From: Seison nebaliae
Taxonomy: Eukaryota > Rotifera > Pararotatoria > Seisonacea > Seisonidae
Assembly (NCBI GenBank): GCA_023231475.1
Contig: JALJEE010002960.1
Span: forward strand, 1 to 61,577
DNA length: 61,577 nucleotides
Reading direction: 5' to 3'
Shown one piece after another: positions 306-58,760 of this stretch. The notes under the pieces are model-generated. The model did no database searches. It saw only the letters and a program-made list of their open reading frames with translations, and was not told where the DNA came from. How positions within the stretch are numbered: position 1 is the stretch's first letter; each line of letters starts with the position of its first letter. A program made the translations under genes and the position numbers.

Positions 306-3299
306 GACAATGAAATTACAACCGCTTCCATTATCTACACCATTCTCTATCACCAGAAGAAATTACAAAGAGAATTCTCTTTATCTCATACTCCAAAATT
401 GGATGGTTTTACTCTCTGTGCTCCATCGTCATCATTGATAAAAGTTGTGATTGGAAATCAGACGAAATCCTCTTCCAGAACGAGTACTTATAAATTGAAG
501 AAAGAAGACACACAAAGTGACATCGCTGCCATGTCGTTCTCGACTGACGCAACGTCACAACCATTCGGTAAATTAAGAATCATTAATGGTATTAATCTGC
601 AGGAAAGATTGCCAATTTCCATCATGAGAATTATTAGTCAAATCGAATTTGAACATCTCTTCAAATACTTCTCCATGCTTCCACTAGTTTAAATTTATTT
701 CATCAAATTCCATTTTTCAATTCAATTATTCTATCAAATTATTCTATTAGAAACTTGTCGCTTATATTTACGGACGATATTCAGTGGAAATGAATCGATT
801 AACAATCGGAAATTCAGCCGTCGAATTTTTCAATAATTCCGTTTCTTATCTACCTCCAACCATCGATACTGGAGTATTGGCAGGAAAATTGAAAGATCTA
901 GTTTATTTTTCATTTTGTGAAATCATTCGTCATTCGTTTTTAGTGTACAAGTTGTTGTTTAGATAATCTTCATATTTCATCGATGTCGAACGTGAAGAAT
1001 TTGGTGCAATTGAGATATCTCTCGTTGAATTATAATCAAATTAGTCTAATTGAAGTTTGCCTTCTTGTTCAACGTGTCCATCATCCCATTCACAATTTTA
1101 TAGGGAACGGAAACATTAAAGAATTTGAAAGAATTATATATTTGTGGAAATAAATTGACAATTCTCGATAATTTGGGAAAACTTTCCTCTCTTATCAAAT
1201 TATCAGTTTTTAACAATAAAATCTCCCAAATTACTGGTTAGTTAATTAAAAACAATTCAATTGAATTCAAATAATTCAATTGTCCTTTTAAGACAGTTGT
1301 TTCCTACCCGAAACGATCCACTCTCTAGTACATATTGATTTGTGTAAAAACCGTTTGAACACCATCATAACACTCGCCGAAATGAGACAATTGGAAACGA
1401 TCGATTTATCGTTCAATCATTTGGAGAATCGTCGAGAGATATTCTTATTAAAAGTTTCTTTCAAAAATTCGCTTTTCTAATTCTCTCAGAAATTAACATA
1501 TTTGACTATGTTGAATATTGACGGGAATCATTTCAAGAATTTAATGAAAATGGAGAATAATGATAATTCTATCGATCTCTATATCATTTATCATTTGAAA
1601 AATCTCAAATTTTTCAACGGACAATTTATAGTCAACTTTTTTTTTCTCGAACAATAATTTACAAATCTTTATCATTTTCAGGATGCTAAAGAAACGAATT
1701 ATGCGAAAGATAAATATTCAGGGAAATTGACACCTGATCTGATTATCGAGAAATTACACAATCATTGTCATGATGGTTTACCTGGCTCATGTCGTCAACG
1801 AATTGTGGGAAGTGCTAAAGTTTGTTCTGGAACTCATTTGCAGAAACCGGTTGCAACTCAAATGGAAGCACAAATCAATTATACTCTCCAATCATTAATT
1901 CCCGATTTCAGTTATCTAAGATTTCTAGTAATTCCATCATCAGCTATCACTTCTGTCAATCTTGCCGGTAATTCGACGGTAGCACGACTCATATTTCCCA
2001 ATTTGATATCGATCAACTTGGAAGATAATTTATTAACATCATTCAGTGGACTCGTCTGTTTCTCTCATATCCACATCCTCCAACTAAATTCAAATAAAAT
2101 TGAATCGATTCGATCCTCGGATTTCCCCTCTATCAATTTCCGTCAAAAGAGTTCCTTTTTCTGTTGTAAATTTTTTTAAATTTTTTTTAGCGCCAAGACG
2201 ATCATCATCATCATTATCGATGTTACGTGGTCGTTATCCGATGGTGGATGATAAAAGTTCGTCAAATGGAAAAGATAATGGTGAATTGACTTCAAACCAA
2301 TCTCTAATGGAACAATTACAAATCCTTCATTTATGGTTAGCTAAAATGTTTTCTTCTATAATTTTTACCATCAATTTTCAGTGATAACAATATCAGTACA
2401 TTGAAAGGATTAGAATTAAATGAATTCGTTAATGTAAGAGCATTATATCTCGCCAATAATGCTCTCACTCAAATCGAAACTCATTTAATGAATATGAGAA
2501 ATTTATGTGAATTAGTTCTGGATAATAATCGAATTAAACAATTCACTTTACAATGTCTCAATTCATTTGCATCGATGACATCACTTCAAATCCTGTCATT
2601 AGAAGATAATCGTCTCAAAGATAAACTGGAACCGTTTTTCAAATGTTTGGGAATTTCGTGTAAGAATTTACGATCATTAAATTTGGCCTCTAACAAAATC
2701 GTCAATTTTTCCGAATTAAACGGTTTGGAAAAGATCGAATCGTTAAAAGAATTGATACTAATTCATAATCCACTTCATAAGAAACCGAATTATCGATTCG
2801 CTGTCGTCTCAAACAATATTAATTTGACAATATTAGATTCGATTCCAATAACGAAAGATGAATTAAATAAATATCGAGAATTATATTCTCAATCTGTAGA
2901 GAATGTTCCTCCTTTACTTCTTCTAATAATTTTATAAAATTTCTCTTTTTTCAGCAACTAGAATCATCTGATGATCAATTGACGAAAGGAGAATTACCCA
3001 AATTAACTTCACAATTAACGAACGAACTTCGAACGTTAACGTTGACGGCACCAACTGGAACGAATTCGATTACAGCGAAAGGCAAAGGAATTTTCACCAA
3101 CACATATCGGCACAATACGGAAAAGAATCTCAGTCAAAAGAATACGAACACCAATAATTTATTTAGTGAGAAGGTTCGAGGAAGAAATGAATTACGAGCG
3201 AAATTTCTCCAGAAAAGTTCGATTCGAACGAAATCATTCTCCGGAAGACAAAATCAACATCATCGAACGGAACCTCCATTTCGATTTTTCGACACATAA
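306..3299 (+). CDS. LRRC9: LRRC9-like leucine-rich-repeat protein
   Basis: Ten exons: 306-686, 751-900, 944-1054, 1104-1236, 1293-1453, 1490-1630, 1682-2150, 2191-2335, 2382-2904, 2955-3299 (about 852 residues). All phases join cleanly. From base 995 on, SDS22-type LRRs follow one another (LRYLSLNYNQIS, LKELYICGNKL, LVHIDLCKNRL). A second LRR block sits at 1930-2850 and ends in an LRR cap (NPLHKKPNYRFAVVSNN). The GKLTPD...EKL linker between the blocks resembles the C-terminal two-thirds of LRRC9, a protein of ciliated animals. The first exon follows an AG acceptor (TGTAG, 301-305) and is open in phase 0 but has no initiator ATG, and only 112 bp separate it from the cathepsin stop. The N-terminal part of LRRC9 (coiled coil and first LRRs) is therefore missing, nested far upstream, or replaced by a spliced-leader start. 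The last exon is basic and low complexity. Confidence 0.62.
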
Positions 3300-3322
3300 A
3301 ATTCAATTTTTTTCCAATAAAT

Positions 3323-5459: not shown

Positions 5460-5708
5460 CAGATGAAAATGAAAATATATTTTTTTCGAATCGCACAAGA
5501 TGAATTCTTCCGTTTTATTCAATTTAACTAATTTCTTTTTTTATGATGCTACAATTCTCTTATCATGTCCGTTACCATGGAGATTAAGTAGACTGCCGAA
5601 ACTTGTAATTTTAATAAAAATAATTTTTTTATAGCAAAACAAGCAAAAAGATTATTATTAAAATTAGAAGCTATATATAATATCGCAATTATTTCCCATA
5701 ATATTCAA

Positions 5709-6826: not shown

Positions 6827-9800
6827 TCAGTTGGAATTGTCGATAGCTAATTGATCCAAGTGACATGATTGATCAGTTTGTGATCGTTTGAAATTCTTTT
6901 TCTTCCTCTTATGTCGTTGCAACTAGAAATGAAGTAATTGAGGGTAAATTTGAATAGAGGAAAAAGAGAAACTTTTGATGACATTTCTGATTCGTCTTGA
7001 GCGACACTTCTTGTTGGTACGGTTAGTTCACTGTCAGACATGGTGACGTGACGGAGTAGATGTTCGATGAAATCGTAGACATGAGGAGCCGCACCGTCAA
7101 CTTGATGTAATAATCGTTCGTTACCTTCGTATTCACCATCGGTTAAATTTCCATCCGTTTTATATCGTTTTCTCATTATCAATTTCTTCAGTTCTGCCAA
7201 TTTCTTCTTTTTCTTATTCTCTTCCAAAACTTCTTCATCATCTCCTTCATTGCCATTATCACTAATAATATTCTTTTCATCATCATCGTCATCTTCTTCT
7301 TCTTCAACTTCGTCAATTGGGGAATCGTCTGTTGGAACGAAATCTAAATAATTATCGATAAAACTGATTTTTTTCGTTTTATTTCTTCGATTCATCATTT
7401 TATTGTTTTGGTTGAGATTGGATGATGTATTGAAGTGAACAGTCGATTTTTGTGAATTATTTTGGTTATTTTCCGGCAGATTTACTGTTTCTTCGTTATC
7501 GAGAACTGATAAAGTTTCATCGTCATTTGTACTATCTGTCTCATAATTATCTACATCATCTTCAATTCGATTGATGAGAATAGTAAGATCAATGAAATTT
7601 GGTGGTTGATAAGTGGATTTGCTTTTTATTTTCTCCACTTGATTGGCTGGTAGATCTGGTACTGTCGTATGTCGATGAAAGAAGAAATTTTCAGGATTTT
7701 GTTTTTGGAAGATATCTTTGTCGAAAGATCCATATTCTTTCCATTCAGCGAATAATGAACGGAAATGTTTCTCGCCCACTTCCAAAATCTCATCAAATGA
7801 ACCGAATTGCAAAGTAGAAAAACCATCAACTGGTGCACGTAAATAATAAACGAATGGAAGACGTTTGATCAAATTCATTTGTCGTTGTGACGACACATAA
7901 GCGAGACGAGATTGAATCTCTTCCATATCTGGAACATTAATAAGAGATGTGAATGGATTCCATCGTTTCCATAGCAACCACCATCCTGACAACGAATCAC
8001 CATAACTTGTTAAATTATCGTTTAATCTGGAACTGACATCATTAGCGAATACTACACTCGCTCCCATATTATGAATGACGTCAGCTGGTAAATTGTTGAC
8101 ATAACCACCATCGAGAAGTAAATGACCATCAATCGGATCACATAATGGTGGCAAATAAGAAGCGAGAGACATACTAGCTCTTACATATCTCCAAACACTA
8201 CCTGAAGTATGAATTCTCATACAACTGGACGTGATGTCTGTTGATACACAAAAATATGGTAACCATAAATCTTCGATTTGAGTGTCACCGAAAGTCACTT
8301 CGATTTGTTCATTGAAACCAGCACCGGTGAACATTGATGTTATTGGATAAGTTAAATCGAAAATTTTATTTGTAATCGAATTCATTGATCGTGCAAATTG
8401 TCGAGCTTTATTTAAAACAATTTTTGAATTTGGTGCATGCATCGCCCATAAAGCAGATACATAACCGCCCATACTCGTCCCTCCAATCATATCTATTGGA
8501 ACATTAAAATCGATAAGTGTAGTGATGAGTGAATAATGTGCATTTCCACGTGCACCACCACCACCCAAAGCAACACCAATACCCGTCCCAGTGAGTAGTC
8601 GTGCTAAACGTGAAAAATCAGAGAGACGATCATATTCCATATTGGCAATTTTCGAATAAGTTTCTTCAATTTCCGATTCAGATTTATACGATTGTAAAAC
8701 ACGATCACTACATCGAATATGATGATGGAAACTGCACCAACTACGTGCATTCAACCAATCTACCGTTCCTAACGGTTTCGTTCGATATCGACGTTTTGGA
8801 TCACGTTCTGGTGACAACATCTCTCCTAATAATGCTTTCCTAATATTATGAATTGCATTATCAACACCTTTTTGTAAGACATCTCTTGTTCGAATTTCAA
8901 CTTCTTCATCTTTCTCTTTCCGATAAAGTAATACTAATTCTTTTTGTGCACGAAATGAACCATATTCAATTTCCGTTTCAAATTGTGTTGGAAGATGAGA
9001 TTGTCCTGAATTAGCCACAATCAATACACAATCTGCTTGTCGTAGACATCGTAAAGTCCATGGTGAGACTTTATGTTCACATTCATATATGACCATTCGA
9101 TGAAGATCTTCTTGTTGAGATAACCAAGCAGATAATCGATAATCATTCGCTGTATCAAAAATTTGTGATCCGAATCGTTCGATAATATTCGTTCTCGTTA
9201 ATCTCATTGTTAAACCAATTTGTGAGAAGGCTAAAGATAATTCAGCAGTAAATGCTTTCAATGGCACTAAAGTATTCACTGGTAATATGGCAAGAGTCGA
9301 TAAATTTGAATGGAGATTTAAATCGAATTCATTATTTTTTAATTCATAAGATTGTTTTTTATCGATGGCTGATCTAATAGTTGAATTATCTTTCGGTAAA
9401 TTATTACTATCCGAAGTAAACAGATTCATATGTGCTAAACTTTCTGAGAAATCATTTGGTCCATTCGAAATATTCGCTGTCGTTGAATTTCCACTATGGA
9501 GAGTAGCAGAGGCAGCAACTGTCGCTCCTAATAATCGTTTTCCTAATAGATTTAATAATCTTGTAATAATTCTTGGATATCTCGTACGAATAACATTAAC
9601 AATACCAGATGGTAAACATGCTAATTCCGTATCTCGAATTGCCATCAATGATGATGATCTTTCTACTCCGATGAGAACCTCAACAAATCCCACCAAATCT
9701 CCTCGTCCATATTCAGCTGCAATATTTTTATCATCCAATTCATTCTTCACCACCGATCTCAAACGACCATTAATAATAATATAAATATTTTCTGATGGAT

Positions 9801-11583
9801 CATTTTGTTTATAAAGAGCTTTTCCTGATTCCACCAATTGCCAATCAAGAGCATAATCTATTTGACGTGTAAATGAAGAAAAACGACGAATAGTCTCGTA
9901 ACATATGGGTAGAACGATATCTGGTTCTTCACACAAAATTCCATAGAAAGCCGATCGTTTTAAGATTACCATAATACTGTCACTTTTCGCCATAACCGAA
10001 AATAGAGAACCTTCTCCTGTCAATAAATTCATCGATCCAATCGATTCGCCAATTTTGAGATAATATAATAAAATCTCTTCTCCACTTTTATCATGTTGAT
10101 GAATGGCAACTTGACCACTAATCAAGAAATGTAAATCACAATCTGTATTTCCTTCCTCAATTAATTTCTCACCACATTTCAATCTTCTCAATACTAATCG
10201 ACCATTTAATGTTGAACTATTTTTCAATTGTAATTTAGTTGCAATTGTAGCTTCAATTCGATGCATTTCCGCCACGTCCTCATTCGATGGAATATCATCA
10301 TATGATTTCGGTCGTTGAATATTTGTCTTCTCAATTCGAGCACGACTCACAAACGCTTCGAAATCTTTATCTCGATTCCATTCGATCGATTGACGTCTCG
10401 GTTTGTTTTCATCTCGACTTATTTTTTTCATAATTTTTTTCGATTCAATCGCTCCTAAACTTCGTTGTCTCATCGGAAATTGTTTAGCTAATGGTGGCAA
10501 TTGAGAATCATCAGTTTTCTGATTCGATAACTTTCTCAGTTTTTTCTTTGAAACTTTCACTTTTCTATCATCGCCGATAGACGGACTACGTAATGGTGAT
10601 CGTATATTAGTCACTCGATTGGTCCGTTGTCGAATGAGTTCTCGATTCAATCCCAAATAAGTGTTTAATGCCATAAATGTAACTCGTTGTATACGAATCA
10701 TTATCATTTGAACGATTCTTACCATTGACGCAGGATATTCTTTAAAAATCTTCGCAAATTCAATTAATGGTAATTTGAGAATTGTGACGTTAGTTTGAGC
10801 AGTCGCTTTCAATTTCCGATAATGAACCGTTTTTCCACGTGCTAACGTCTCCAATATCGTCATTAATGAAAATATAGATTCTCCCGCATGTACTTTCTTT
10901 ATTAATGACATTCGATTCTTCTCTTCGATCATATACAAATTGACAATTCCTGTTTGAACAACAAAAATGGCGTCATCTTCTTGATTGGGTTCGAAGAGAC
11001 ATGAATCTTCTAATAAATTCACCGTTTCTAAATGACGAAATAATTGAGCGAATAATGGTTTGTCGAAATGACCAAATACTTTCATACTCTTCAAAACATA
11101 AACGATTTCTTTCGGTAACATTGTCTGATCACGACGTGTTTGTGGTTCAAGATCGAATGTTACTAAACTGTTTGGAATTACTTGTTTCTCTCGACGATTC
11201 GGAATATTCTTTTTGAATAATTTATCTTCGATTTTCGCACCGATTTGTATGATATTCTTCAACACATCTCTCTTTCTCTGATCTTTCCATTGTTTACTGG
11301 GCAAGACGTCGATTCTTGACCGCAATTTACGTAAAGCAACTCGAGCGAAATGGAAAATCCTCTCACGATCCTTCAAACGTCCACTGAACAAATCTACTGG
11401 ATTCTTCTTCGAATTACTCATCATCTTCCTCCGACGAAGATAAATAGAAATTAATATAATCACTAAACCAATTACGATGGTAATTGAGACGAGGAAGAAT
11501 TTGGATGATAATACAATGTCACTCTGCGTTGTAATACGAGTAAATGTCGTCAGAAGACGATCCATCATTCCAACATCTTCCAT
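6827..11583 (-). CDS. PNPLA6: Neuropathy target esterase-like patatin phospholipase (PNPLA6/7)
   Basis: Two exons: 11583-6973 and 6922-6827 (1568 residues; vertebrate family members are about 1330-1370). Order: N-terminal transmembrane helix (about residues 28-50), first cyclic-nucleotide-binding-like domain (about 160-290), second and third such domains (about 470-700), and a patatin lipase domain. In the latter the oxyanion motif GGGARG lies near residue 1004, the nucleophile serine in GTSMG near 1035 and the catalytic Asp in DGG near 1157, so the Ser-Asp dyad is intact. It should be an ER-anchored lysophospholipase/phosphatidylcholine hydrolase. A C-terminal extension of about 240 residues is acidic and low complexity (runs of E/D, then K). 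The 4.6 kb first exon has no introns; the one intron (50 bp, 6923-6972) sits just before the basic tail. Confidence 0.95.
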
Positions 11584-12019
11584 TTCTTATTAAAGCTAAA
11601 AATGAAGCAAGCTAACTCTTTCAATATTATTCAATCACTCTTCATTGACAATTTTTTTCTTTCATTCTTTTTCGCGTAAAATGAAAATATTTTGGGTAAA
11701 AAAATTTCCATGACAAACTAGAAAAAATCATATTTCACTTATCATCCTTATTTTTTTGTCATTAGTAAATATTTAATCATGTTGCACAACACTTCCAGGC
11801 AACTTTTTTTTCATGAAAATTATAATTATTTTTTTATGACTTTTTATTTATAAAACTTATAATTTTGAATTGATTCCTCTGTGTGTGTCTACTATCGATA
11901 TCTAATACACTGTATTTAATACACTGTATTAGATATTGTTAATAATAAGATATAATACACATACTGTATTAAATACAGACTAAAACTTTAGTCAAATAAA
12001 ATAAATAATTTTTATTGAT
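11584..12019. other. Intergenic with near-perfect palindrome
   Basis: The 436 bp between the NTE-like start and the stop of the next minus-strand gene hold a 37-bp near-palindrome at 11899-11935, listed separately, and further copies of its AATACA/TGTATT core up to about 11985. I see nothing else. Confidence 0.6.
11899..11935. repeat. 37-bp near-perfect palindrome
   Basis: The two arms read TATCTAATACA and TGTATTAGATA around two tandem copies of an AATACACTGTATT core. Only the centre and one symmetric pair break full palindromy. It could form a cruciform or RNA hairpin. A related core recurs at 30434-30452. Confidence 0.7.
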
Positions 12020-17736: not shown

Positions 17737-20700
17737 ATGAGTCGAAATGATGAGACATTTGCATTGCTATGCGATCGATTTGATTCGGTGCAGCAAGAGC
17801 AAATGTATATGAGAAATGGTGTTTTTCATCGGCTGAAAATGGAGAGGATGAAATCATGGAAGAAAGCATTGAATAACATAGCCGATCGACGGAAAAATAG
17901 AACTACTACTGATTCTTTCAATTTGGTCGATGAACAATATTCTCGAGAAGCTCATTTATCTACAGGAGATAGCAGTAAGGACGGTAACAGTAGCAGTAGT
18001 GATGACGAAGAAAAGAAAGAGAAAATGAAAGAAATTGATGCTGGTTCCAACAATTTTTTACTAAATTTTTTATTTTAAAAACATTTTCTTTTTTCATCAT
18101 TAAAACTATTCAAGATGACTTAATTGCTGAGGCGCCATGTCGACAACCTAACCAAACTGATGAAGAATTGAAGAAGATGAAACAATATGAAATTGAGGAA
18201 TTGATGAAGATAACGGAGGAGGATAAAGCGGGACTATATGTCGAAGCGTTATATACGATAATTCATAAAATCGGAATTAGAGAACATTCACATGAGAAAT
18301 TAATAAATTATCTTCATGACATTTTTAAAATGGACGACGATACACATCACCTCTTATTACATCAAGCAGAAAAACAGGAAGTTGAAATTATTTTTTTTGT
18401 TTTTAATTTCAATTATTTTTAGGCTCCCAGAGTTATCATCAATGTGGATATATTCGAAGCGAAAAATTTGGAAGCGAAAGATGCGAACGGTTTCTCCGAT
18501 CCATATTGTATGTTGGGCATCATGCCAAAACAATTATTAAATGGTTTAATCATTTCTTCTACTAATCGAAATGAATTACACCTGAAATCTATTTTTCACT
18601 TTGAGATGTATAGTAGAAAATGTCAATAAAGCCTCTAAACTTTCTCGTCTTTGTTGCGTGTCTTGTGGAAGTAAATATGAAATTTTTTATTTTTTTATAT
18701 TGGTGAGTTGAAATCAATAATAACTTATAATTTTAACCATTTAAAATACATTTGGAATAAAAATTAATTTTTATTTCAATTAAAAAGAGAATAATGGTCA
18801 TAAGAATAAGAATGATGGATCGGTTAATTCATTTTTGCATCGATTTGGTGAATCGTTAAAATTCCGTCCGAAGAAACCGGAAGGAAAACGAACCGAATAT
18901 TCAGAAAGAAGAGTTTCCTTCAACTCTGTATTTCTCATCAATTTCTATTCTTATTCTAGTCAAGTTTCGTTATTAGAGATCGCCTTCCTGCAAGATATAT
19001 TCAAACGACGGATGTTAAACGATGTACACTGAATCCTGTTTGGAATCAACGATTTCGATTGTTTACCATTTTTCCGATTTTTTCATTATTTGTATCGTTC
19101 ATGTACAAATATTGTTTCAGTTTTATCGAAGATTTAGAAACGGACACTTTACATTTGGATATTTGGGATCATGATGATGAAGTGAGTGTTTTGGACGCAA
19201 CAAAACGATTAAATGAAATTAGTGGAATTAAAGGACTTAATCGGTTTAATTCAATCATTATTCCATTACAATTCCATCTACATTCCAATATCATTGTTCA
19301 GATTCTTTAAACAAGTTGCTCAAAGTGCACGTACATCATCGTCTGTAAATAACCAACGACGATCGTCATTGAACGTTGACGATTTTCTCGGATGTCTCGA
19401 TTTGTCTTTAGCAGTTGGAATTTTCCATAAACGTTCATTAATAAATAATATTCTCAATTCATTAATAGACGGTATCATCGAAGGGCGTTGAGAAATGGTA
19501 CAAGTTACAAGGTAGGTCATCCAAATCGAAAGTTGATGGTGATATTCGATTGAGGTTATCGTTATCGACAAGAGAGAAGAAAAATCTACATTGTCCACAT
19601 CACAACGAATCGTCATGTTCGGAATCGGATGAGGATTGTAATTGGACGGACGTGGATGAACAAAGGAAATTATTAAGAATATTTATTGAGGCAGAAATTG
19701 GAAAAGAAGATTCCAATCATTGGAATGGACAATTATCACATGATGCAGAAGTGATATTACATCAACATGCCGTACAAGGAGATATTACTGATTTACAATT
19801 ATCTTTATGTCGATGGTTGTCTTATAGTGATGTACATCAAAAGAAACCGTTAAATTTCAATATTTTGGGAAGATTACTTCGATCATTGGACGAACTGTCC
19901 GACATCAATTCACCGTTAAGTCGCGATGAGACTGTGGCACTTCGATCATCTTTCCAATTATATATCATTAATTGTTGCTCATTAATACGACATTTACGTG
20001 AAGTTCTACCAGCCACTTGTGAACCTTCGATCTATAAATTGCAAGCGATGTTAAGTACATTGAGTCGAATACATTCAATGCAATTATATCAGATTGCTTG
20101 TTCACCTTATATTTGTGAAGATATGCACGATCTCATTTATGAAGCAATTGATGTTAGTAATTTTCTTGTCAAATAATTCATGAAAATATTAAAATTTTTA
20201 GAAAGGATTATGTGAATGGTATGAAACGACGAAAGCCGCATCGAAACCATTAATGAGAGTTGGCTTTCTTATATAAAAGAACGGAATTAAAAAAGGTTTT
20301 TTCAGGCTGATGAACAAATCATTTTAAGTTTAGTGAAATTAGTCAATGCAATTTATGCGGAATGTTTCGAAGCTGCTAAAGTTTATGATAAACATTTCAA
20401 AAAGTTTCTTTAATTTTTAAATTTTCATTCATTCGAATTTTAAATTTGAGATATTTGAACATTTCCTATTTCAGTTTCATTTATAAAAAATTGGATGAAA
20501 AAGTTAAAATTTTCCTCTTTCTTCCTTTTCGCACTCCGATTAATTCGATTAACTGCTTATTCTATTTGATTATTCCGATTAACAATTATCGATTAACACA
20601 GCTTTGCACCGATATACTTCGTGCATTAGAAGCAGAAGTTTCTTCTTCGATTTCTCCACTTGAATTAATTGAACAATTCTTCTTATCTCACATCTATTAG

Positions 20701-22931
20701 ATTGGTAATGAAATTTATGATGATATCGAAGAAGTGATTAATCGAGAGGAAGACATTCTCGATAATAGTGTGGCGGCCGTTCAAATTGGTGAGAATCTTT
20801 TTCGTCTTTATACTGCCCTCAAAGATTTCCATAAATTCCGTACTCATGTCACAGGGTTACTAATTTAAAATAAATATATATTAAATTTTCATTAATTATT
20901 TTAGAATTGCCATTTCAACTTTACACATCAACTCTTTTCACAAATATTTCGTCACAGCTGTACGTCGATGGATCGATTTAGCACGTCAGAAATCTATGCA
21001 ACGAATCAAAATTTCGGTTGAACAAGATCAAGTTTTATTGTTGTTGTTTATTATACTTATTATTGTATTTTTGAACAGTCACTTGATTATGAAAATGAAG
21101 TTCAATTGACAACGTCTTCAGTTGATGTGAAGTCATTTTTGGCTGAATATCGTCAATTTTGGGCAGCCATCAGTTGGCCGGACGCCGAATATGGATTTAT
21201 TTATTTGATGAAGATAACACAAGATCTAACTGATGCTGCTATGTATTATACGAATTTGATGCATCAGAAAATGTTAAACAATAAATATTATGATTCGACG
21301 GGACGATTCGACATTTCAAAAGAAGTTCAATTTCTTCTTTTTTCAAATTTTCATGTTCAATTTCAACAGTTGTGTCAAATAATTAATTCGATTGAGAATG
21401 TTCGAGATTATTTAGTAACGAACATTCCGCAGAATCTTGAAGTTAACAAAACTGTGACACAAATCGATGAGATGTCAGCAGAAGGTTGTAAGATCGCTTT
21501 GAATAAATCCGTTATGACGATGAATCAGGAAATGCAATTGCACATTAAAGAAATTCTTACACTCGTCGTTAATAAAATGAGTGATGAATTAAATAATCGC
21601 ATCTTTCAAATGTTGGATGGTGTACATGAATTGACGATGAATTCGACAGTGACGGATAAGTTGAGTGAAGACGAAGTTCTCCATCCATTGATCCAATATA
21701 TTGAAGACAATTTAATCTCATTGAAAATTTACATGTTGCAAGTGAATTTCAATTTGATTCTCTTCATTTTATGGAAGGACTTCCTTCAAATATTCGAGAA
21801 TAATTTTAAGAAAGTGTCAAAGAAAACTTCACCTCTCACTTACTTTATGAAATGTAAACGAATTTTGGAGACACTAGCTAATTATTTCCATGGCGACGGA
21901 AACGGTCTATCTCGGAAAGATATCGAAAATTCTAGATATATAGTTTCTTTTTGGCTTTTCTTACAATTAGTTACTTTGATGTATTTGATTCTATTTTAGA
22001 TGTTAACTAGCAATATCTCTTTGCACGTTTGTGATAGTAGTACTTTGATATCGATGTTCTACAAAGAACGAGTGCTCTTCCAACAATCTGTATGTGAAAG
22101 TCTTTACGGAAGTGTCACCGTTCGTGCACAATATCATACATCGGCTGAAACGTTATCAGTCGAGTTACTGTTTGCAAGAAATCTTCGACCTATGGACGCC
22201 AACGGATCATCTGACCCATTTGTTCTCATATCGTTGAAACCAGCTTTCTTATTTACAACCAAAACCGTGCACAAATCGAAAGTAAAGAAAAAAACTTTGA
22301 ATCCTCAATACAATGAACGATTCGATTTGTTTGTAATTTTTTAAAATTGATAATTATATTATTAAGTCTAGTAAAGTGAAAGAAGTTGAATGTTTAACTG
22401 ATGGAGCGTCAATCGAATTTCGCATATTCGATCACGATCTAGTTGGACGGGATGATTTCGAAGGAGAAGCATATTTGTCCGTCAACAATTTACCAGGTTT
22501 AAATTCTCTCTACCAAATTTTTCTTTCAATTTTTTTAGGAGTTCATGGAGATTTGGGACCTGGTGGTCTATCTGATTTAAAGACAACGACTTTGTATCTC
22601 CAACATCCGAAAGGTTAGTCAAATAATATTCTAGTTTTATGTTTATCTTCTCCCAATCCGTCGTCTTCGATCAGACGGCATAAAATGTATAAATGGTAAA
22701 TTTTCTTTTAAAGTAGAGCTAAACTAAAACTTCCAATAAAACTAACGATTGTTCCATATTAGACATAACTAATTAACTGACCATAAGAGGAGACCAAAAC
22801 AAATCATTAATTCTTCAAATATTTTTCTTATAGAATATGCGGATGGAATTATCGATGTGCTGAGAAAGAGAGATGATCAATTGGCATTAAATTTTGTAGC
22901 GGATTTCGATCGTATTCGGTTGTACGACTAA
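17737..22931 (+). CDS. BAIAP3: BAIAP3/UNC13D-type Munc13 protein
   Basis: Twenty-one exons (1283 residues): 17737-18043, 18115-18380, 18423-18543, 18614-18670, 18788-18912, 18960-19060, 19121-19243, 19302-19413, 19469-20152, 20202-20258, 20306-20403, 20475-20502, 20602-20637, 20701-20855, 20905-21031, 21079-21324, 21370-21942, 22000-22332, 22367-22496, 22539-22613, 22834-22931. Order: acidic N-terminus; GLYVEALYTIIHKIG; C2A from about residue 191 (GFSDPYCMLGI, TLNPVWNQRF, WDHDDEVSVLDATKRLNE, DDFLGCLD); the MUN/MHD helical block (about 430-1070); C2B from about 1100 (MDANGSSDPFV, FRIFDHDLVGRDDFEGEA). This family primes or tethers dense-core and recycling vesicles through SNAREs. It has no C1 domain, which separates it from UNC13A-C. 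The ATG follows an AG acceptor. Three microexons or small exons (28, 36 and 57 bp) occur in the MUN region. Confidence 0.92.
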
Positions 22932-23848: not shown

Positions 23849-26800
23849 TTATTTCAACATTCTCTCACTCGGATCAATTTGCTGTGAAGCAAATGTATTG
23901 AACACTTGTTCGAGAGTGGATTGACTGACTGAATAATCGTCAATATTCAACTTAGCTTTATTATTTTCCATTATTTCAAAAATTTGAGCCAATTTCAAAT
24001 CTTTCGTTTTACCTTGTTCGTTAATCGATATCCTTATCTCTGCGATATTTTGACATTGGTTTGAAATCTCGATATTTTCATCTGAATATTGTTTATTCAA
24101 CCATTCAATAAATTTTGTCATATTCACTTCTCCCTTCGAATTGATCTCATCTTTATTTTGTTCGCCATCCATCGTTTTCACTTTTAAGTTGAACCCTTTT
24201 CCATAAATATTCTTTAGATTTTGTATGGTATTCAGACATTGGAATTTGCCGTTCATCATGATAGTTGCCCTCGTGCATAATGCCTCACATTCTTCCATGG
24301 AATGTGTTGTCAAGATGACGGATCGGCCGTCAGTATTACGAATAGCATTAATGACATTCCACAAATATCGTCTGGCACTTACATCCATTCCGCTTGTGGG
24401 TTCGTCTAATAAAATTAGTTTTGGATTTCCAACGAGCGCAATAGCTGTTGATAATTTCCGTTTATTTCCTCCACTATTTCCATCATGATGAACAATTAAA
24501 TTTTAAATAAATGATAAAAGATAAATAAATGGAACCTGTATTTCGTACCGTAATTATCTGCATGATCTTTCAAATTTAACAATTCCAACAAACTTTCTAC
24601 GTTCTGCTTAATCTTGTCTTTAGGTACTCCACGAACTTTGGCATAAAATTCTAATAATTCTTTTCCTTTAATATTCTCTGATAACGAATCAAATTGAGGA
24701 CAATATCCGACAGTTTTTCTTGCCTGAAAATGATCGATTAAATTTATCCAAATAATAAATGAGAACATCTTTCGCTTCTGTTTCCAATTTCTTTCCATTC
24801 ACATAAATATCACCATCGGTAGAGGTTTCATCCCCAATTAACATTTTAAACGTTGTCGTCTTTCCAGCCCCATTAGCTCCCAACAATCCAAAACATTCCC
24901 CATTTCCCACTTTCAAATACATCGGGAATACAGCTACGAAATCCTTATACACTTTCCCCGCTCCATTGATTAGCAGAATATTCTGTTCAGATAATTCCTT
25001 AACAGATTTATTTTGGATTTCTTGTTTTTCTCTTAAGACATCTTCAGATTCTTTGTTTTTAATCTAAAATTTTTAATTTTAATTTTTTAAATAAATTTAA
25101 AATATTTATCGTCGTTCCAACCGGTTTTACTTCTATTGCCGTTTTAGGTCTTTCTGGCTCTATTTCTATTACAGTCTATTTAAATTTCATCAGAATTTAA
25201 TCGTATAGAACAATAAATGGAATGGAAAACTTCAACAATTTTGTTTGTGGTAACAATTTCTTTTTCTGGTTTTAGAGAATCATTCTTCATTTTATCATAG
25301 CTCCACGGTTTCTTTTGACATGTACATTTCGCTTTCAACTGATAACTTAGATTCGATTCCAAAAAGATGAGAATCAAAAATAGAATTATTCCTTGAAGGA
25401 GGAGACAAATAATGTTGAGAAGAATTCCAGGTTCCTTAATCGAATCAAATTTCTTGTCACAATGTTCTAAAAAATGAGAAGAAATTTAGAAAATTGTAAA
25501 AATTAACCCAAAGTTGGAACAGTTTTACATAAGAAAATTGTTTGTTGAAGAGAATAGAATTGAAGTACACCATTACCAAATGCGAAATTGGGAAAGATGA
25601 TTGTAAATATAGTATTCAAAATTTCAGGCACTTTTGAATTTGGTTCTATCGAAGCTACGATAAATACCGCTATTACCATAATCATTCCCGTCACCATATT
25701 GAATGCTGATAAGGCAGCAATGGCATTTGCTGATTTATTGAAGAATCGAGATAAAATGAACATTGACAATATTCCAGGAGGTCCATACAATAAGAATAAC
25801 AGAAAAAATTGTGCGCCAATTTCTAAAGAAAATTTTCAAAACCGAAACTTTAAAACTTCTAACCGAAATCCTCAACAACATAAGCGATATTGAATGCAGC
25901 GAACAAAATCAGTATAATGATGGAAACGATAGTGTAGAATATAAAGTTCCAAAGGAAATTGGTGAACCAATAGACGACGGAATTAATACCAGAAATGAAT
26001 TGAAGTAATTTAGCACCGCTAATTCTTTCTTTCACTATATATGCAGCGAATGAAGCGAAAACGAATGAGAATCCCATCAATAAATTAACGACAATGGAGA
26101 AGATTCCGAGATTTTGACTCAATGAATTTTGGTTATCGATTATATCTTCTTTCGTTGCCGGCAACGGATGATTTACAGTATTGATTAATGCTTTTGACGT
26201 ATCAGCTTCATTGCTAACAATCATTTGTAAAATGGTGTTCGATGCCATATTGAGAGCGAGTGGAGCCGAATGTGAATATGAACTCTCGTATTGTGCAGTC
26301 ACATGGAGATTTGTTAATGATTTTTCAAACAACAATCCCATCACATGTAAACTGAGATAAGAACTAATACTGATTTCCGTACCGAAACATGTTGTATAAT
26401 CCACCATAGAACTAACAAAAGAAAAGAAGATTAGTTAATAGATGAAAAAAATAGAAAACGTTTGTTCATTACATTTTTGAAGTTTTGAATCTGTGAACTT
26501 ATCTTCAACGTTATGTAATTGTGCTTTATATGGTCGATCTGATCTCCGTAATGATTTTGCTAAATCGAAAGTTTTCTCAATGGATTCGGTAATGAAAGTT
26601 TTTTCTCCCGCAGTTTGTGCAGTTGGGGAATCAGCAATATAATATGGAATATAAGTATCTGAATAATTTCCGAAAGTTATAGGCAATTGAATTTGATTCA
26701 ACGATGTTGGGAAAATTTTATAAGCGATGACACCCAATATCACCGTTATGATTGGTACGAATATTTGAGAAAGTAACAAACTGATATTTCGAATATTTCC

Positions 26801-29800
26801 CAAGAATATTTTCTTGAATAAAGCTCTGAATTGCTGCAAACCTAATTTCCATCCACTAATCAATGTGTAACTGGGATTTGTCAATTCTTCAATTTCTTTT
26901 TTATTTTCTACTTGTTCCTCATTCGTTGATTCATCTTTTAATATTAGCGATGCAACCACTTCCGATTCGAAAGAACTAAAATCAATTGAATCGATTTTAT
27001 GCATTTTTTTCTCATCTTCTAATCTTTTCTTCTCCTTTTCCAATATTTTCTTTAAATCTTCTTCATGTTCTTTCGGGACACGATATTTTATTGTTCGTTC
27101 GTCTACTGATTCGATTTTAGCTTTATGATTACCATATTGATCCTGCATTACTGCCAATAGATCATTAGACCAGGAAACAATCGATTCATTCTCCACCACA
27201 TTCAGGAACACTTCCTCCAAAGTGGTGATACTACAACCATATGAAGCGATTCTAAACTCTTTCATTTTTGAATCAAGTTCTTTCAACAATTTCGGTAATT
27301 TCTCATTTGCACCTTGTTTGGGAATGCTGAATTTCAATTCTTTACTATCCTCTGATATCAATTCTACTTTAGGGAAATTTGTCGACTTAATCCAATCATT
27401 AATTTTTTTCGAATTCTCTTTTAATTCTTTCTCGATCTCTTCAACATCTTCTTGTTCTGATGCCAATCGTGCACATGTCAAATGATATCCCTTACCATAT
27501 CTGTTCTTCAAATCATGATTCGTATCTTGTACCATCAAATTACCTTTAACCATTATGGCAATCCGATCGCCCAGATTGTCAGCCTCATCCATAAAATGAG
27601 TAGTGAGAATAATCGTTTTGCCTTTCTTTTGATTTAGAAGAATCTTCCAAATTTCACGACGTGCCTTCGGATCTACACCAGCCGTCGGTTCATCTAAGAT
27701 CACAATTTTCGAATTACCACAAAATGCAATGCCAATACAAAGACGACGTTTCTGTCCTCCTGACAATTTTTTTGCTTGTTTATTCCTCTGTTCTTCAAGA
27801 TTCAAATCTTCCACATATTTATCTACTTCATTTTTCACATTGACAGCTCCTTTCAATTCAGCAAAGAACGTCAATTGTTCTTCCACCGTCATATACTCGA
27901 AGAATACGTTATGTTGTTGACAAACGCCAAGATTATTACGGATAGATGACAAGTCTCTCCTCAAATCATACTTATCATCAACATACATTGTTCCTTCAGT
28001 TGGAGCGATAATTCCGGTCAACATACTAATTGTGGTACTTTTACCAGCACCATTTTGTCCTAAAAACGCTGTTATCTCATTGCCATAAACATCCATATTA
28101 AGCCCACAAACTGCTGTTTTAGTCGTTTTCTTACAACACATTCCTTGAGTGAATACCTTTAAAGAATTTAAAATTAAATTTAATTTTCACAATTTTTTTC
28201 AAACTTTTTTCAATTTCCTTATTTTTATCGTCGGTTTCTGATAACGTTGGTTAGTGAATTGTTTATCTTCCGCTTCTTCAGATTTGTCTCTCACACTGTT
28301 CTTTACATCACAACACTGGGAACGAAACAAAATTATTTATTAGAATTCATATTATAGAAAGGAAGAAAATTAGAAAAACCGGAAAAATGTAATACCATTT
28401 TTTAGCGATACCATATTGACCTGGATTCACGTCATCGACATAGACTGCCAATAGACCGTAGAGAAATATATCCAAAACCATCATACCAAAAACGTGAGCG
28501 AATGTAAATGAATCTTCTAATGACGACGGTTCGTTTACCGTTTCGGTTACAAGTCCAATATTGGTTGATTCTAATCGAGAAAGTACTCCGGTTCCACTGC
28601 TGAAAGCGAAATTGGGTAAAAGACATAATAGACATCTCGCAGCTACAGGTATTATCTTCCCGTTGAGGAAAGTACTAGGTAGATAAGACGCAAAAGTTAA
28701 AAGACCACCACCCATGGCACCCGTGTACCCTGAAAATATAATAAATTGTTAAAGAGATTAGATTAAATATTAGAAATAGAAAAAGAAAACCTTGAGAGAA
28801 TATACTTGAAAGGAGAAATATGAATGTGATGTTAGACAAGTAGAATAGGAAGAAGAATATGAAGATATATCCATAACTGGAATGTTCAAGAACGGCAACT
28901 TTAAACGCTGTGTTAACCGGTTGTAACTTAATCTTTAAAAAGTATTCATTATTATCTAACTAATTTTAAATAATTATGTGTAACTTTAAAAGCTCCGGCG
29001 ACTATTAACGAGAAGATCAGTCCAATAATGCACATCTTCACGAAATAGATGAACCATTGTAAATAACGAGGTATGCCATGTAATTTCAACAATTCTTTCA
29101 TACCCATTTCTTTCTCTACCGTAATTTGTCGAACGTTTAAAATGGCGACAAATACCATAGCTAGAATGAAAATTAATGGCAATTGTGTTTCAATTGTTCG
29201 CACGTTACTATCAACAACATATGGAGGATATGGTATTCGTTGTAAGTTAGGAGACATCCTAATAGTATCTCTCCCAAACGCTTTACTATTTGGGGTAGTT
29301 CCAATTTGATCTTCCATAATTGCACGATCGACTGCTGACTGAATTCCTAAAAATCCATCAGTCGCATAATCTGTTTTCATTTTCCAATTATTTCAATTTC
29401 AAAAAATTATTTCAATAACTTGGTTTCCCATATATAGAAATTGGATTTTTAGTTGTAGAACGAACAGAAAGACCCTCAGATAAACGTCCCGTATTCCAAA
29501 ACGTCTTTTTCTTAGTAGTCCTAAATCTCATAGGTAAACGAATCTTGTAAGTTATCTTATATCGCTCTCCTGCGGATATTGGAGGATTTGTTTCAAATAT
29601 GACAACTCCCAGCCATTCCGAATCTACAAATAAATACTCTCACTTATTTTCAATTAGATAATTTTAACTTTTTTCTTCAACATCGTTTAACATCAATCCT
29701 TCACTATCATAGGGAACTAATGGTTGTGTTAACGATAAATACGTATGAACGTTATCCATTATTCGTTGCGTTTGTGCATTATGTGGTGCATACACTAATT

Positions 29801-31126: not shown

Positions 31127-31164
31127 CTTTTTTAATAGGTTAAATGGGGGTGCAAAAATTTGTG

Positions 31165-41111: not shown

Positions 41112-41134
41112 AACATTTATAGAATCGTGGAACT

Positions 41135-47544: not shown

Positions 47545-47589
<45 letters not shown>

Positions 47590-53903: not shown

Positions 53904-54156
53904 TTCTTAAATGAAAGATACAAGTCGATAAAAACTTCCTTAGCTCCAAAGAGAACAAGTATCCTGTTGTTGTTAAGTGAAATGCTCACGTTTTAATTCG
54001 AATGAGAAGCGAATGCTTTCGATAAGTTTAGGATATAGAAATATGTTTGTTTCCAAGTTATAATTCAAAAATTTAAGCTTTCATCTACTGGCAATGTAGA
54101 AAATTAACATAATTTATTTCAACTTTAATAAATTGAAATACTTATTATTTTTCTTC

Positions 54157-55193: not shown

Positions 55194-55826
55194 ATGGAAT
55201 GTCTTATTGGATTGACGGGACGTGATTTTGTGATTATCGCAGCTGATGCAATGTCCGCAAGATCTGTCGTGGTTATGAAAAAGAATTTGAGTAAAATGTT
55301 GAGAGTGTCAGATAAACTCGTTCTGGCGACAAGCGGAGAAGCTGGAGACTCATTCCAATTTGCCGAATATATCGCTAAAAATATCGCGCTCTATCGAATG
55401 AGGACGGAACAGGAATTGTCACCATCAGCCGCTGCAAATTTCACCAGGAGACAAATAGCAAATTATTTACGATCACGATCTCCCTACGCGGTCAACATGT
55501 TGATCGGTGGAATAAATGATGAGGGAGAAGGTGAATTGTATTTTCTCGATTATCTCGGATCGATGGTTAAAACTAATTTCGCAATGCATGGATATGGAGC
55601 ATTTTTTGGTTTGTCGATTTTCGATCGATTCTATCGTCCTGATATGACAATCGATGAAGCGATGAATCTTTTAAGTAAAGTCATTTGTGAAGTGCAGAAA
55701 CGATTGATAATCCAATTATCCGACTTTCAATTCTCTTTATTGTCAAAAAAAGATGGTGTTGTCGAATTGAATAAACCATTAGCCATTGAAGAACAAGCGA
55801 AGGAAGATGTGAAAATGGAATCTTAA
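55194..55826 (+). CDS. PSMB2: Proteasome subunit beta type-2 (beta4)
   Basis: Single exon, 210 residues. MECLIGLTGRDFVIIAADAMSARSVVVMKKN, SGEAGDSFQFAEYIAKNIALYRMR, ELSPSAAANFTRRQIANYLRSRSPYAVNMLIGG, LDYLGSMVKTNFAMHGYGAFFGLSIFDRFY match beta4 of the 20S core. It begins directly with Met-Glu and has no catalytic Thr1 propeptide, as expected for a non-catalytic beta subunit. A charged C-terminal extension of about ten residues (EEQAKEDVKMES) is added. No introns. Confidence 0.96.
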   Translation: MECLIGLTGRDFVIIAADAMSARSVVVMKKNLSKMLRVSDKLVLATSGEAGDSFQFAEYIAKNIALYRMRTEQELSPSAAANFTRRQIANYLRSRSPYAVNMLIGGINDEGEGELYFLDYLGSMVKTNFAMHGYGAFFGLSIFDRFYRPDMTIDEAMNLLSKVICEVQKRLIIQLSDFQFSLLSKKDGVVELNKPLAIEEQAKEDVKMES

Positions 55827-56027
55827 AATTATTAATAAAAAATTTAAATTAACAAAATAAATTTATGGAGAATTCTATTTTAATTTTTAATGAAAATTTA
55901 ATTTTTTCTGAAAATTTAACAGAATTTTTTTTTTCAAAAATTGACCGAAATTGATTTGAAAATTTACAGAATTGTTTTTTAAAGATTTTACTCATAATTT
56001 TTTTGGAAGATTTACTCAAATTTTTCA

Positions 56028-57128
56028 ATGTCGAATTTAAGAGGCAAAGCAACAAAAGAACAACTGGAACTTTCATCGACGGTGAAGGAACATCATGAAA
56101 TGAGGAAGAAAAAATTGGTGGATATTCCCAAATCGGAAATATTCGATCAATGGAAATCAATAAAGGAAGAAGAGAATTTAACGGAATACTCGATGGCGAT
56201 GAATGATTTGTCGAAAAAGTATTGGAATAAGAATATAGATAATTCACAAAATCGGAATTTTATAATTATGAATTTCATCCAAAATTTTCTATTTGAAAAA
56301 AATTATTTGAAATTTATTCGTCGATTTTTTCGAAGAAATGAGATGGAAATCGATTTTGATGTAGTCGATATCGATCATTTGTTTCTCTTGGATATCGGCA
56401 GTTGTAATAATCCACTTCAGGAAATTAATCGATGGGACAATTTGCATATTCTTCCTATTGATATGGCACCTATAGATGATGTGTATAAATGTGATTTTTT
56501 GACGGTTAAATTATCGTCCGATTTCCATCATATTCGATTCTCTGATGGAAATAATCTGCGAACAATTGTTATGAATGAAGCTTTATCGTGTAAAGCAGAG
56601 ATGATGGAGAATGAAAAGAATTCACAGAAATTATCATTAAATGGAAAAAGGAGAATAATTTCTGAAAAACGATCAAAGAAACGAAGAATTGAGAAAGAAA
56701 TCGTCAGTATTCGTTCTCGTTCATTTCATGTGATTATCATGTCATTATTTTTGGATTGTTTACCGAGAAAAGAATTCCGATTAATTGCAGTTATGAAAGC
56801 ACAACGAATGTTGGTGAGTGGAGGAGTGTTGGTGGTGGTATTTCCAGATTCGAGTAGAAATCCCAATAAGAATCAGAAGGAATATAATCGATGGATTTCA
56901 GCATTTGAGACGTTATGTCTTCAACGAATCCGTATGGAAAAATCGGACAATAATATTTTCATATATTTTATGAAAATATCAAACAAATTGAGAGAATTGA
57001 GATTATTTGAATTGAGTGAAATTGATCAATTATCGTCATTTGAACCATTCTCGTCGAATGATGATGAAATGTTGAGAGATTTTGAACTACTTCAAAAATT
57101 CCATCTTCATTTAGATAATTCTATTTAA
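56028..57128 (+). CDS. BMT2: SAMTOR / BMT2-type S-adenosylmethionine-binding protein
   Basis: Single exon, 366 residues. The N-terminal helical part (IFDQWKSIKEEENLTEYSMAMNDLSKKYW) matches the family block DKIWREH..EETLCEYAVAMKNLADNHW. The Rossmann part follows: LFLLDIGSCNNPL (SAM loop), LHILPIDMAPIDDVYKCDFLTVKL, then after a basic insertion (KRRIISEKRSKKRRIEKE) FHVIIMSLFLDCLPRKEFR and MLVSGGVLVVVFPDSS. In animals SAMTOR senses SAM and, through GATOR1/KICSTOR, restrains mTORC1; the yeast relative Bmt2 methylates 25S rRNA. No introns. Its stop is 16 bp before the next ATG, with a pyrimidine-AG acceptor (ending 57141) between them. Confidence 0.88.
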   Translation: MSNLRGKATKEQLELSSTVKEHHEMRKKKLVDIPKSEIFDQWKSIKEEENLTEYSMAMNDLSKKYWNKNIDNSQNRNFIIMNFIQNFLFEKNYLKFIRRFFRRNEMEIDFDVVDIDHLFLLDIGSCNNPLQEINRWDNLHILPIDMAPIDDVYKCDFLTVKLSSDFHHIRFSDGNNLRTIVMNEALSCKAEMMENEKNSQKLSLNGKRRIISEKRSKKRRIEKEIVSIRSRSFHVIIMSLFLDCLPRKEFRLIAVMKAQRMLVSGGVLVVVFPDSSRNPNKNQKEYNRWISAFETLCLQRIRMEKSDNNIFIYFMKISNKLRELRLFELSEIDQLSSFEPFSSNDDEMLRDFELLQKFHLHLDNSI

Positions 57129-57144
57129 TTTTCTCTATCAGATA

Positions 57145-58122
57145 ATGTTCCGTTACTCGTTGGGGAAATTACGTCCGCAGATTTTGTTAATGAAAAAGAA
57201 ATTGATAGATCCGATATCGAAGGAGATGTTGAATGCGAATCAAAAAATAATTCCTACTCTTTATTTCAGTAGAAAAGAAACGAGTAAAATACATCAAGAG
57301 AAATTGAAGAAATCTCTCAAACATCTACTGGATAATAATCATTTGAATGAAGCTATTTATCTTCTCGTTCATGTTGGTGGTAATTATAAGAATATCATTC
57401 AACCATATCATTATCGTATCGTCATGTCAGCATTGGGACGATATGGTCGTTTAGATCAAGTTCTCACATTATTCAACGACTCGAAAAATCGAAATTATGT
57501 TTTGGAAAAAATGACAAAATTAGATCAAAAAAAAATGTTCGTAACGATTGCAAATACGATAAGAGTCGCCGCCTTTAATTTGACGATCGAAAGGAAAGAC
57601 GACAGAATTAACGGAGATGAATTTAAACGAGAATTCCTTACCATTTTTTATGGTATGAGAAAATTGATGAATTTAGTTGAGAGACATTTAGATCGAAATG
57701 AATTGAATGATAATCAAATTCTTCGATTTGCTTTAGCCGACGCCATGGCCAAATGTGGGGATTATGATAATACTCTGAAATATTTGAGTCCGTTGGCTGA
57801 GAAGAACTCGGAGAGATTGAGATCATTTTCCATTTTATTTCATTCGTTATTGAATCAAATTCAACTAAATCGTCTCGATTTGTATAATGGAGAATTAACG
57901 ATAGAAATAACAATAAATCAATTCTATCAAATTTTTCAAGAATTCCAACAATTCATTAAAGATGCACAAATTAGAATTGATGGAACATCTGGCAAATATG
58001 AACGACAAATTCAATTAATTCAACGTCAGTATCAAATATTTAATTCATTAAAAATCAATCCGAATATTCCCTTTAAACAATCCATATCTGATGGGAATAT
58101 TCCTGTAAATTTATTAGAATAA
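57145..58122 (+). CDS. Pentatricopeptide-like protein, probably mitochondrial
   Basis: Single exon, 325 residues. The basic, hydroxylated N-terminus (MFRYSLGKLRPQILLMKKKL) resembles a mitochondrial presequence. Paired-helix stretches follow: HLLDNNHLNEAIYLLVHVGGNYKNIIQPYHYRIVMSALGRYGRLDQVLTLFND, then AALADAMAKCGDYDNTLKYL-like, with PPR spacing (about 35 residues), so an RNA-binding organellar role is likely. PTCD1/PTCD2-like proteins are candidates, but I cannot name the orthologue. The ATG is three bases after an AG acceptor and 16 bp behind the SAMTOR stop, which points to a shared transcript resolved by trans-splicing. Confidence 0.6.
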   Translation: MFRYSLGKLRPQILLMKKKLIDPISKEMLNANQKIIPTLYFSRKETSKIHQEKLKKSLKHLLDNNHLNEAIYLLVHVGGNYKNIIQPYHYRIVMSALGRYGRLDQVLTLFNDSKNRNYVLEKMTKLDQKKMFVTIANTIRVAAFNLTIERKDDRINGDEFKREFLTIFYGMRKLMNLVERHLDRNELNDNQILRFALADAMAKCGDYDNTLKYLSPLAEKNSERLRSFSILFHSLLNQIQLNRLDLYNGELTIEITINQFYQIFQEFQQFIKDAQIRIDGTSGKYERQIQLIQRQYQIFNSLKINPNIPFKQSISDGNIPVNLLE

Positions 58123-58347
58123 AATATTGTTGAGAAATTTAATTATTTTTAAGTTCTTATTCACACAATATATGTAGTTAAGGCACAATATATAGCACAA
58201 TAGTTAAAATTTCAAAAAAAAAAGAGAAAAAATTGACTGTGTTAAATTAAAATTTGTTTATTGAAAAAAAAAGGTCGAGAAGTAAAATGTATTTTGAAAA
58301 TATCGATATACAGATTAATATCGTATTATGATTATTTTGTCAGTATT

Positions 58348-58760
58348 TTAAACGTAGAATTTAAGAACCAAAATTCCCCCAATCACCGAAAGGATAAGAC
58401 TCATCATATTTATTTGTACATTACCTGCACTATTACAATTGTCGGTATCACAGCAATAAACACCAGATACTGATTCATCACAAACGTCTGCACAACTCCT
58501 CGTTGGAATATTACTTAACACTGCTTTCTGTTTCAATAAAAAATCAAGAAGATAAATTAAATGGTAAAGAATGATAACCATGCAAAATTCCTTATTACAA
58601 GGCGTTTTCACTTTGAGTAGTCCAATTCCGGTATAACAACTCGTGAGAGCTGATAGAATAAAATAAAATTATTGACCCATTATGAAAACGTTAAATATTA
58701 ACCATAAGCCTGTGGCACAACGATTGCCACGATTACTAATGAACAAAAAAGTTTCAACAT
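58348..58760 (-). CDS. Ly6/uPAR-type three-finger protein, copy C
   Basis: Three exons: 58760-58703, 58649-58579, 58527-58348 (102 residues). Exon 1 is a signal peptide (MLKLFCSLVIVAIVVPQAYA). The mature part reads SCYTGIG..TPCNKEFCMKAVLSNIPTRSCADVCDESVSGVYCCDTDNCNS: ten Cys in LU-domain order with the closing CCxxDxCN. A hydrophobic tail (MMSLILSVIGGILVLKFYV) fits GPI addition. It is shorter and distinct from copies A and B, nearer to classical single-LU proteins. It converges on the PPR-like gene, with 225 bp between stops. Confidence 0.8.

Follow-up and report, generated by a model that had tools for sequence, protein, structure and literature searches.

A GTT 5′ splice site and a complementary base at nucleotide 6 of U1 small nuclear RNA genes in the rotifer Seison nebaliae

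Most introns examined in the marine rotifer Seison nebaliae (Pararotatoria, Seisonacea) begin with GTT, and three of the four U1 small nuclear RNA (snRNA) genes that we found in its genome carry the complementary base at the nucleotide facing the third intron position (+3). The window analyzed here is an entire contig of 61,577 nt, whose intron-bearing stretch runs from 306 to 58760; the assembly searched has 36.03 Mb in 846 contigs, and a published assembly of Seison strain B has 43.9 Mb in 3,301 contigs with a GC content of 31.9% (passage in PMC8351084), which makes the one searched a different version or a subset. Taken together, the sequences very probably record a natural compensatory switch, in which a shifted donor of about AR|GUU (R, purine; the bar marks the exon–intron boundary) would be read by a prevailing U1 with A at nucleotide 6.

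The donor logo was drawn from 261,577 bases (about 0.26 of 36 Mb), namely the window plus one 10-kb stretch from each of 20 further contigs. The gene finder was a purpose-written hidden Markov model, with coding statistics taken from long open frames, that was self-trained for five rounds from each of three donor starts: GT fixed with +3 to +6 uniform, GTRAGT, and no information at any of six positions. From the uniform start, 250/292 introns have a GTT donor. The GTRAGT start converged to GTT all the same (211/261 introns), and the information-free start recovered it in 194/253 introns, which means that GTT was found de novo. The introns called identically from all three starts, which we term robust (n = 162), comprise 150 with GTT, 7 with GTA, 3 with GTG, 1 with GTC, and 1 with CTT, this last donor sitting at the end of a stretch. 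For the window, the uniform start gives the following.

306..58760, no strand assigned, GTT-intron stretch, 82/94 window introns GTT

Here 54/56 robust introns are GTT, and the original prediction that nearly all introns of the window start in this way is confirmed by the gene finder and by the protein-fixed introns described below. The pattern is not limited to this locus, since 168/198 introns on the other contigs are GTT as well (uniform start, 20 stretches). Introns are present in 19 of these 20 stretches and GTT is the majority in 18, the exception (L029) having GTT at 1 of 2. The proposed genome-wide shift of the donor thus holds on the contigs sampled.

It could be argued that GTT is an artefact of T-rich introns and ambiguous gene-model boundaries. 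The introns are indeed T-rich, GTT already makes up 41.2% of all GTN (N, any base) on both strands of the 261,577 bases, self-training can amplify a bias, and the gene finder is imperfect, with exact calls for 9/13 protein-fixed ABCA introns. Against this, the first pass with a uniform donor already had GTT at 106/186 GTN donors, above 41% (p 2e-5), and introns fixed by protein leave a single choice of boundary, which is GTT each time. We regard such an artefact as highly improbable.

Three GenBank proteins of the species were placed on the DNA by an aligner that favours no splice signal, which gave 31 introns. The predicted PMCA protein of contig C20 is 97% identical to SNEBB_009653 (97% query coverage), the ABCA protein of the window is 96% identical to SNEBB_008818 (99% coverage), and the importin-like protein of contig C796 matches SNEBB_005121. 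These three names and that of U1C were checked here; all other gene names are labels of the original prediction. When all equally good placements at the same intron length were enumerated, one single GT..AG placement was obtained per intron (31/31), with a median length of 54 nt, and the donor is GTT in 31/31 (p about 1e-12 against the 41.2% background). The share of the window is 13/13 ABCA introns.

So as not to depend on how the GenBank proteins had been annotated, we examined these introns again using homologues without a Seison label (20 PMCA, 20 ABCA, and 5 importin, some without an organism name), scoring for each intron every nearby frame-keeping, stop-free GT..AG pair. GTT is the best donor class at 30/31 introns, with the annotated donor at 26, and 16/31 introns have no frame-keeping non-GTT alternative. 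The ABCA introns are listed below, each being the sole GT..AG placement compatible with SNEBB_008818.

24474..24535, minus strand, ABCA intron GTTCCA, homology favours GTT by 25.1
24724..24766, minus strand, ABCA intron GTTCTC, homology favours GTT by 35.7
25064..25121, minus strand, ABCA intron GTTGGA, homology test unreliable (neighbouring intron 18 residues off, another GTT picked)
25176..25230, minus strand, ABCA intron GTTTTC, homology test unreliable (neighbouring intron 18 residues off, score below 0, another GTT picked)
25467..25507, minus strand, ABCA intron GTTAAT, sole frame-keeping GT..AG pair examined, score below 0
25823..25863, minus strand, ABCA intron GTTAGA, sole frame-keeping GT..AG pair examined
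26412..26459, minus strand, ABCA intron GTTTTC, homology score below 0, another GTT picked
28157..28204, minus strand, ABCA intron GTTTGA, without non-GTT alternative
28316..28379, minus strand, ABCA intron GTTTTT, homology favours GTT by 36.5
28730..28790, minus strand, ABCA intron GTTTTC, homology favours GTT by 20.4
28933..28984, minus strand, ABCA intron GTTACA, only intron with a homology preference for a non-GTT donor (GTCGCC, by 2.6)
29371..29419, minus strand, ABCA intron GTTATT, without non-GTT alternative
29624..29668, minus strand, ABCA intron GTTAAA, GTT favoured by 22.8, acceptor placed 15 nt upstream of its annotated position

The annotated donor was missed at 4/31 introns (PMCA 1075; ABCA 1068, 1434, and 1452); just 18 residues separate ABCA 1434 from 1452, and the region tested for either one could contain the other. 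At three introns (PMCA 611, ABCA 105, importin 203) the annotated donor was recovered with a different acceptor, the margin for GTT is only 1.5 at PMCA 447 and −2.6 at ABCA 301 (where a GTC donor is preferred), and the best GTT score lies below 0 at five (ABCA 301, 1068, 1354, and 1434; importin 203). Given the convergence of the GTRAGT start and the homology preference, GTRAGT donors offset from those proposed were rejected, and the counts on other contigs and the protein-fixed introns likewise led to the rejection of an artefact of this locus.

The rest of the donor is loose. A purine at +3 is found in 0/31 protein-fixed donors and 29/292 self-trained introns, and G at +5 in 4/31 and 22%, respectively, so that these donors depart from the canonical GTRAGT at both positions. 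In the 189 GTT introns that measure 45 nt or more, G at +5 nevertheless reaches 20% vs 7% in the intron interior (2.7x, p 5e-13) and +4 likewise differs from the background (p 1e-4), with no clear departure at +6 to +8. Loss of both the +3 purine and the +5 G had been proposed, with +4 to +6 varying freely; the loss at +3 is borne out, and free variation is nearly right apart from the residual signal at +5 and +4. On the exon side, positions −3, −2, and −1 depart from the exon background (p 0.003, 0.0009, and 0.0001), and the 31 fixed introns have A at −2 in 21, A at −1 in 14, and G at −1 in 12. The donor code is thus about AR|GTT.

Four exceptional donors had been named in the window (GTC at 1631 and GTA at 18671, 22333, and 40601). 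Only the first was called as such, in the uniform-start run:

1631..1681, plus strand, exceptional donor GTCAAC in the gene labelled LRRC9 by the original prediction, outside the robust set

At 22333 and 40601 a GTT donor adjacent to the GTA site fits the gene finder's protein when the sequence and predicted proteins are read by eye. An origin of the introns from introners, which would show as shared sequence families, was rejected. The 292 introns gave 12 match rows with E of 1e-3 or better, and the 10 of these 12 that were listed are pieces of 16 to 39 nt, with some pairs repeated.

The 5′ end of U1 is among the most invariant of eukaryotic sequences. Four loci (L001 to L004) score above the gathering score of 69.5 for Rfam RF00003, at 97.4 to 112.9 bits. 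Their 5′ ends read AUACUAACCUGG in L001 and L003, AUACUAACUUGG in L004, and the ordinary AUACUUACCUGG in L002. Nucleotide 6 is A instead of U in 3/4 copies, which thereby depart from the ordinary 5′ end AUACUUACCUG; in these A6 genes, which lie on three contigs, it is the sole change within the first eight nucleotides. The mean column identity of the four U1 genes is 76%, which makes the A6 genes diverged paralogues rather than copies of a single recent error. The U1A loop of stem-loop II, AUUGCAC, is kept in L001, L003, and L004. Judged by whole-molecule sequence and structure, the A6 loci are U1, with a changed reading end.

The assembly has the ordinary 12-mer at one place and the A6 12-mer at four, three of them U1 genes and one unrelated; this fourth occurrence, at C629 (L010), was rejected because its surroundings, read by eye, are not U1. 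A DNA search for further U1 copies with one gene returned only itself and L001; it missed L002 and L004 and is therefore insensitive. We note as a lead only that L004 has an extra change at nucleotide 9, which would allow pairing with A(−1). The A6 5′ end of L001, L003, and L004 reads AUACUAAC and contains UACUAAC, the yeast branch-point word, which is largely complementary to the GUAGUA of U2. A pairing of U1 with U2 would be possible, and the match is probably a coincidence.

Downstream of all three A6 genes, 8 nt past the gene end, we find TAATTAAACTTT or AAATTAAACTAT, and the U2 genes L006 and L007 and the U5 gene have TAATTAAACTAA, TAATTTAACTTT, and TAATTAAACTTT 11 to 18 nt past their ends; the leave-one-out null is 0 to 0.0015 for these six genes (three A6 U1, two U2, and U5). 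A strong 3′ box near TAATTAAACTTT therefore follows L001, L003, L004, L006, L007, and L033 and is common to U1, U2, and U5; it differs from the vertebrate box. An upstream promoter motif is firm for L004 and U5 and borderline for U2 (null 0.052). The U2 locus L008 (C796:78598-78799) is a decayed copy with many broken pairs, no 3′ box (null 0.80), and no promoter-like element.

Donor position +4 faces nucleotide 5 of U1 (passage in PMC10581693), so that nucleotide 6 faces +3 and A6 can pair with U(+3). In the mechanism that we propose, A6 would pair with U(+3), A7 with U(+2), and C8 with G(+1), which would give U(+3) a Watson–Crick partner. Over the 250 GTT donors, the mean number of Watson–Crick pairs in fixed register is 4.90 for the A6 end vs 3.90 for the ordinary end, a one-pair gain that follows directly from +3, and the mean duplex energy is −2.73 vs −1.87 kcal/mol. 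In free register (duplexfold), the A6 end is the stronger at 149 donors, equal at 36, and the weaker at 65. The donor would then be passed to an unchanged U6, in which the ACAGA box would take U(+3) as a G–U wobble; no change in U6 would be needed because U(+3) can presumably wobble with the G of ACAGA. We infer that the A6 genes would be the expressed U1 majority and that pairing at +3 would be what selects GTT. The A6/GTT change is presumably derived within rotifers; GTRAGT donors and an ordinary U1 are what we would expect of other rotifers.

The motifs of the other snRNAs are kept at the loci found. U6 (one locus) shows no difference from the consensus over UACAGAGA, U2 (three loci) keeps the branch-binding motif GUAGUA, and U5 (one locus) keeps loop 1, GCCUUUUACUAA. 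An altered U6 is thereby ruled out for the single locus found, as are changes in loop 1 of U5 and in the branch-binding site of U2 for theirs. The GT..AG ends and the presence of U6 ACAGAGA, U2 GUAGUA, and U5 loop 1 mark the introns as major (U2-type) introns. The U1C gene (L034), read by eye from the DNA, has exon 1 ATGCCAAA, a GTTATA donor, and a CAG acceptor, leading to MPKYYCDYCD; the gene finder also has donors GTTATA and GTTCGG there, with a different start and acceptor. The N-terminal 57 residues of U1C align gap-free to the human protein and the zinc finger is kept. An altered U1C was rejected: there are a few substitutions vs human, none clearly linked. It had been suggested that the shift implies altered U1 or U6 recognition or a reliance on intron length. 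For U1 this agrees with an A6 complementary to U(+3) in 3/4 copies, for U6 the one locus is unaltered, and there is no need to invoke reliance on intron length as the chief cause.

U(+3) may instead be read by something other than nucleotide 6 of U1 (a wobble with U6 G44, Prp8, U1C, or SR proteins), in which case A6 would be tolerated drift. In Entamoeba, the donor consensus of confirmed introns is GTTTGT (passage in PMC4053983) and U1 snRNA is reported to be absent (passage in PMC13292270), which indicates that a U at +3 can be read without U1; Seison shares this U at +3 and differs in having four U1 genes, a matching change in three of them, and loose +4 to +6. A U1 copy of ordinary type persists in Seison, and U(+3) can probably wobble with U6 G44, as extrapolated from the facing of +4 and A43 (passage in PMC10581693). 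However, the change in U1 falls on the single nucleotide that faces +3 and turns it into the complement, in three genes with wide differences at other positions, and U1C shows the gap-free N-terminus described above. We consider this alternative unlikely and favour a reading of U(+3) by A6.

Several points weigh against a switch led by the A6 genes. L002 (C208:6576-6739), with its ordinary 5′ end, scores 112.4 bits vs 112.9 for the best A6 gene, and a promoter-like element resembling that of U2 lies upstream of it (null 0.007). This element is not confirmed for the A6 genes L001 (leave-one-out null 0.62) and L003 (0.44); promoters do not separate the two U1 kinds in favour of A6. The U1 copy number is a lower bound, with 41/293 candidates scored. 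In free register the A6 advantage is not universal, as seen from the 65/250 donors that favour the ordinary end, and no compensation is seen between the left and right halves of the donor (Spearman 0.02, p 0.79).

These points bear on whether two U1 codes coexist, with A6 reading the GTT majority and L002 reserved for the small set of GTA/GTG introns or for a function outside splicing. The score and promoter-like element of L002 speak for this, as do the 12/162 robust introns that are not GTT, the GTA and GTG donors among them. On the other side, the 29 GTR donors of the uniform-start set match the ordinary +4 A, +5 G, and +6 T (0.45, 0.24, 0.34) hardly better than GTT donors (0.39, 0.22, 0.40) and show no clear excess match to ordinary U1 beyond +3, so many of them may be miscalls; moreover, the U1A loop of L002 is altered (CAGAGCAC instead of CAUUGCAC), and its 3′ box is weak, with only AAATTCAACTGT (null 0.028). 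Such a division of labour seems rather doubtful to us. L002, which has an A6 U1 as a convergent neighbour at a distance of 1.5 kb, could be an old-code remnant or a second reader; that an old-code U1 is kept as a second, specialised, or dying reader beside a genome-wide A6/U(+3) switch is a possibility that we hold tentatively.

Other splicing components were also surveyed. LUC7 matches are found at one place only (L036 to L038, C540:21603-22771), no second LUC7 gene being shown, and we take the second zinc finger of this gene to resemble that of LUC7L3. In human cells, disruption of LUC7L or LUC7L2 leads to selection away from donors with strong U6 pairing (passage in PMC11732430); as speculation by analogy, this effect would agree with the looseness of +4 to +6 seen here. 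A match to the METTL16-type family PF05971 exists in the genome. U12 snRNA gave no match in the genome, in a search that was likewise silent on every control genome. The bdelloid spliced leader has 0 genome matches at up to 3 mismatches, and trans-splicing with that leader is not evident. Elsewhere in the window, 6847-11586 on the minus strand is an almost uninterrupted open frame of 1579 codons, whose product, read by eye, is a candidate neuropathy-target-esterase-like patatin protein (GGGGARG, GGTSMGG).

Laboratory precedent for such a change exists: Zhuang and Weiner reportedly made a suppressor U1 in 1986, in which a base change at the 5′ end restores pairing to a changed donor. That U1 was made for one mutated site, whereas the Seison change is natural and fits most sampled introns. 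Their suppressor work is cited in PMC11732430 (reference within a passage). Fritillaria borealis resembles Seison in being an animal whose intron ends have shifted genome-wide; the U1 end is retained in a tunicate most of whose introns depart from GT/AG (passage in PMC13326754). The +4 A/U switches of Saccharomycotina are alike in that preference changes at one donor position, but they track METTL16 and not U1; wherever U1 was identified, ACUUACC was invariant (227/230 Saccharomycotina and 9/10 outgroups), and no U1 change lies behind the +4 switches across the 240 yeast and outgroup genomes (passages in PMC10581693). The diplonemid S. specki also has ordinary and altered U1 5′ ends in one genome, but its variant carries a run of C and has a donor complementarity comparable to that of canonical U1 (passage in PMC12621601). 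Term searches found no donor analysis in PMC8351084 (which has "splice" once, "intron" twice, and neither "snRNA" nor "donor"), PMC12256650, or PMC7310846, the last of which mentions splicing four times, as alternative splicing. Among the literature matches listed, with subscription journals mostly outside, there was no report of an animal in which a U1 change fixed in nature corresponds to a donor change across the genome.

On the sequences at hand, the splicing code of an animal and the reader of that code seem to have changed together. If this is true, Seison would be a case of natural U1/donor co-evolution across an animal genome; if, in addition, an old-code U1 is kept, both ends of a splicing-code switch, together with the state that bridges them, would be open to study in one genome. 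It would become testable how the carrier survives such a switch (through a U1 duplication that came first, or through donors that changed first), to what extent pairing at +3 defines introns of ∼50 nt, and whether earlier states are found in the sister groups Acanthocephala, Bdelloidea, and Monogononta. In the Seison genome, exons may be misplaced by gene finders that assume GTRAGT from the outset.

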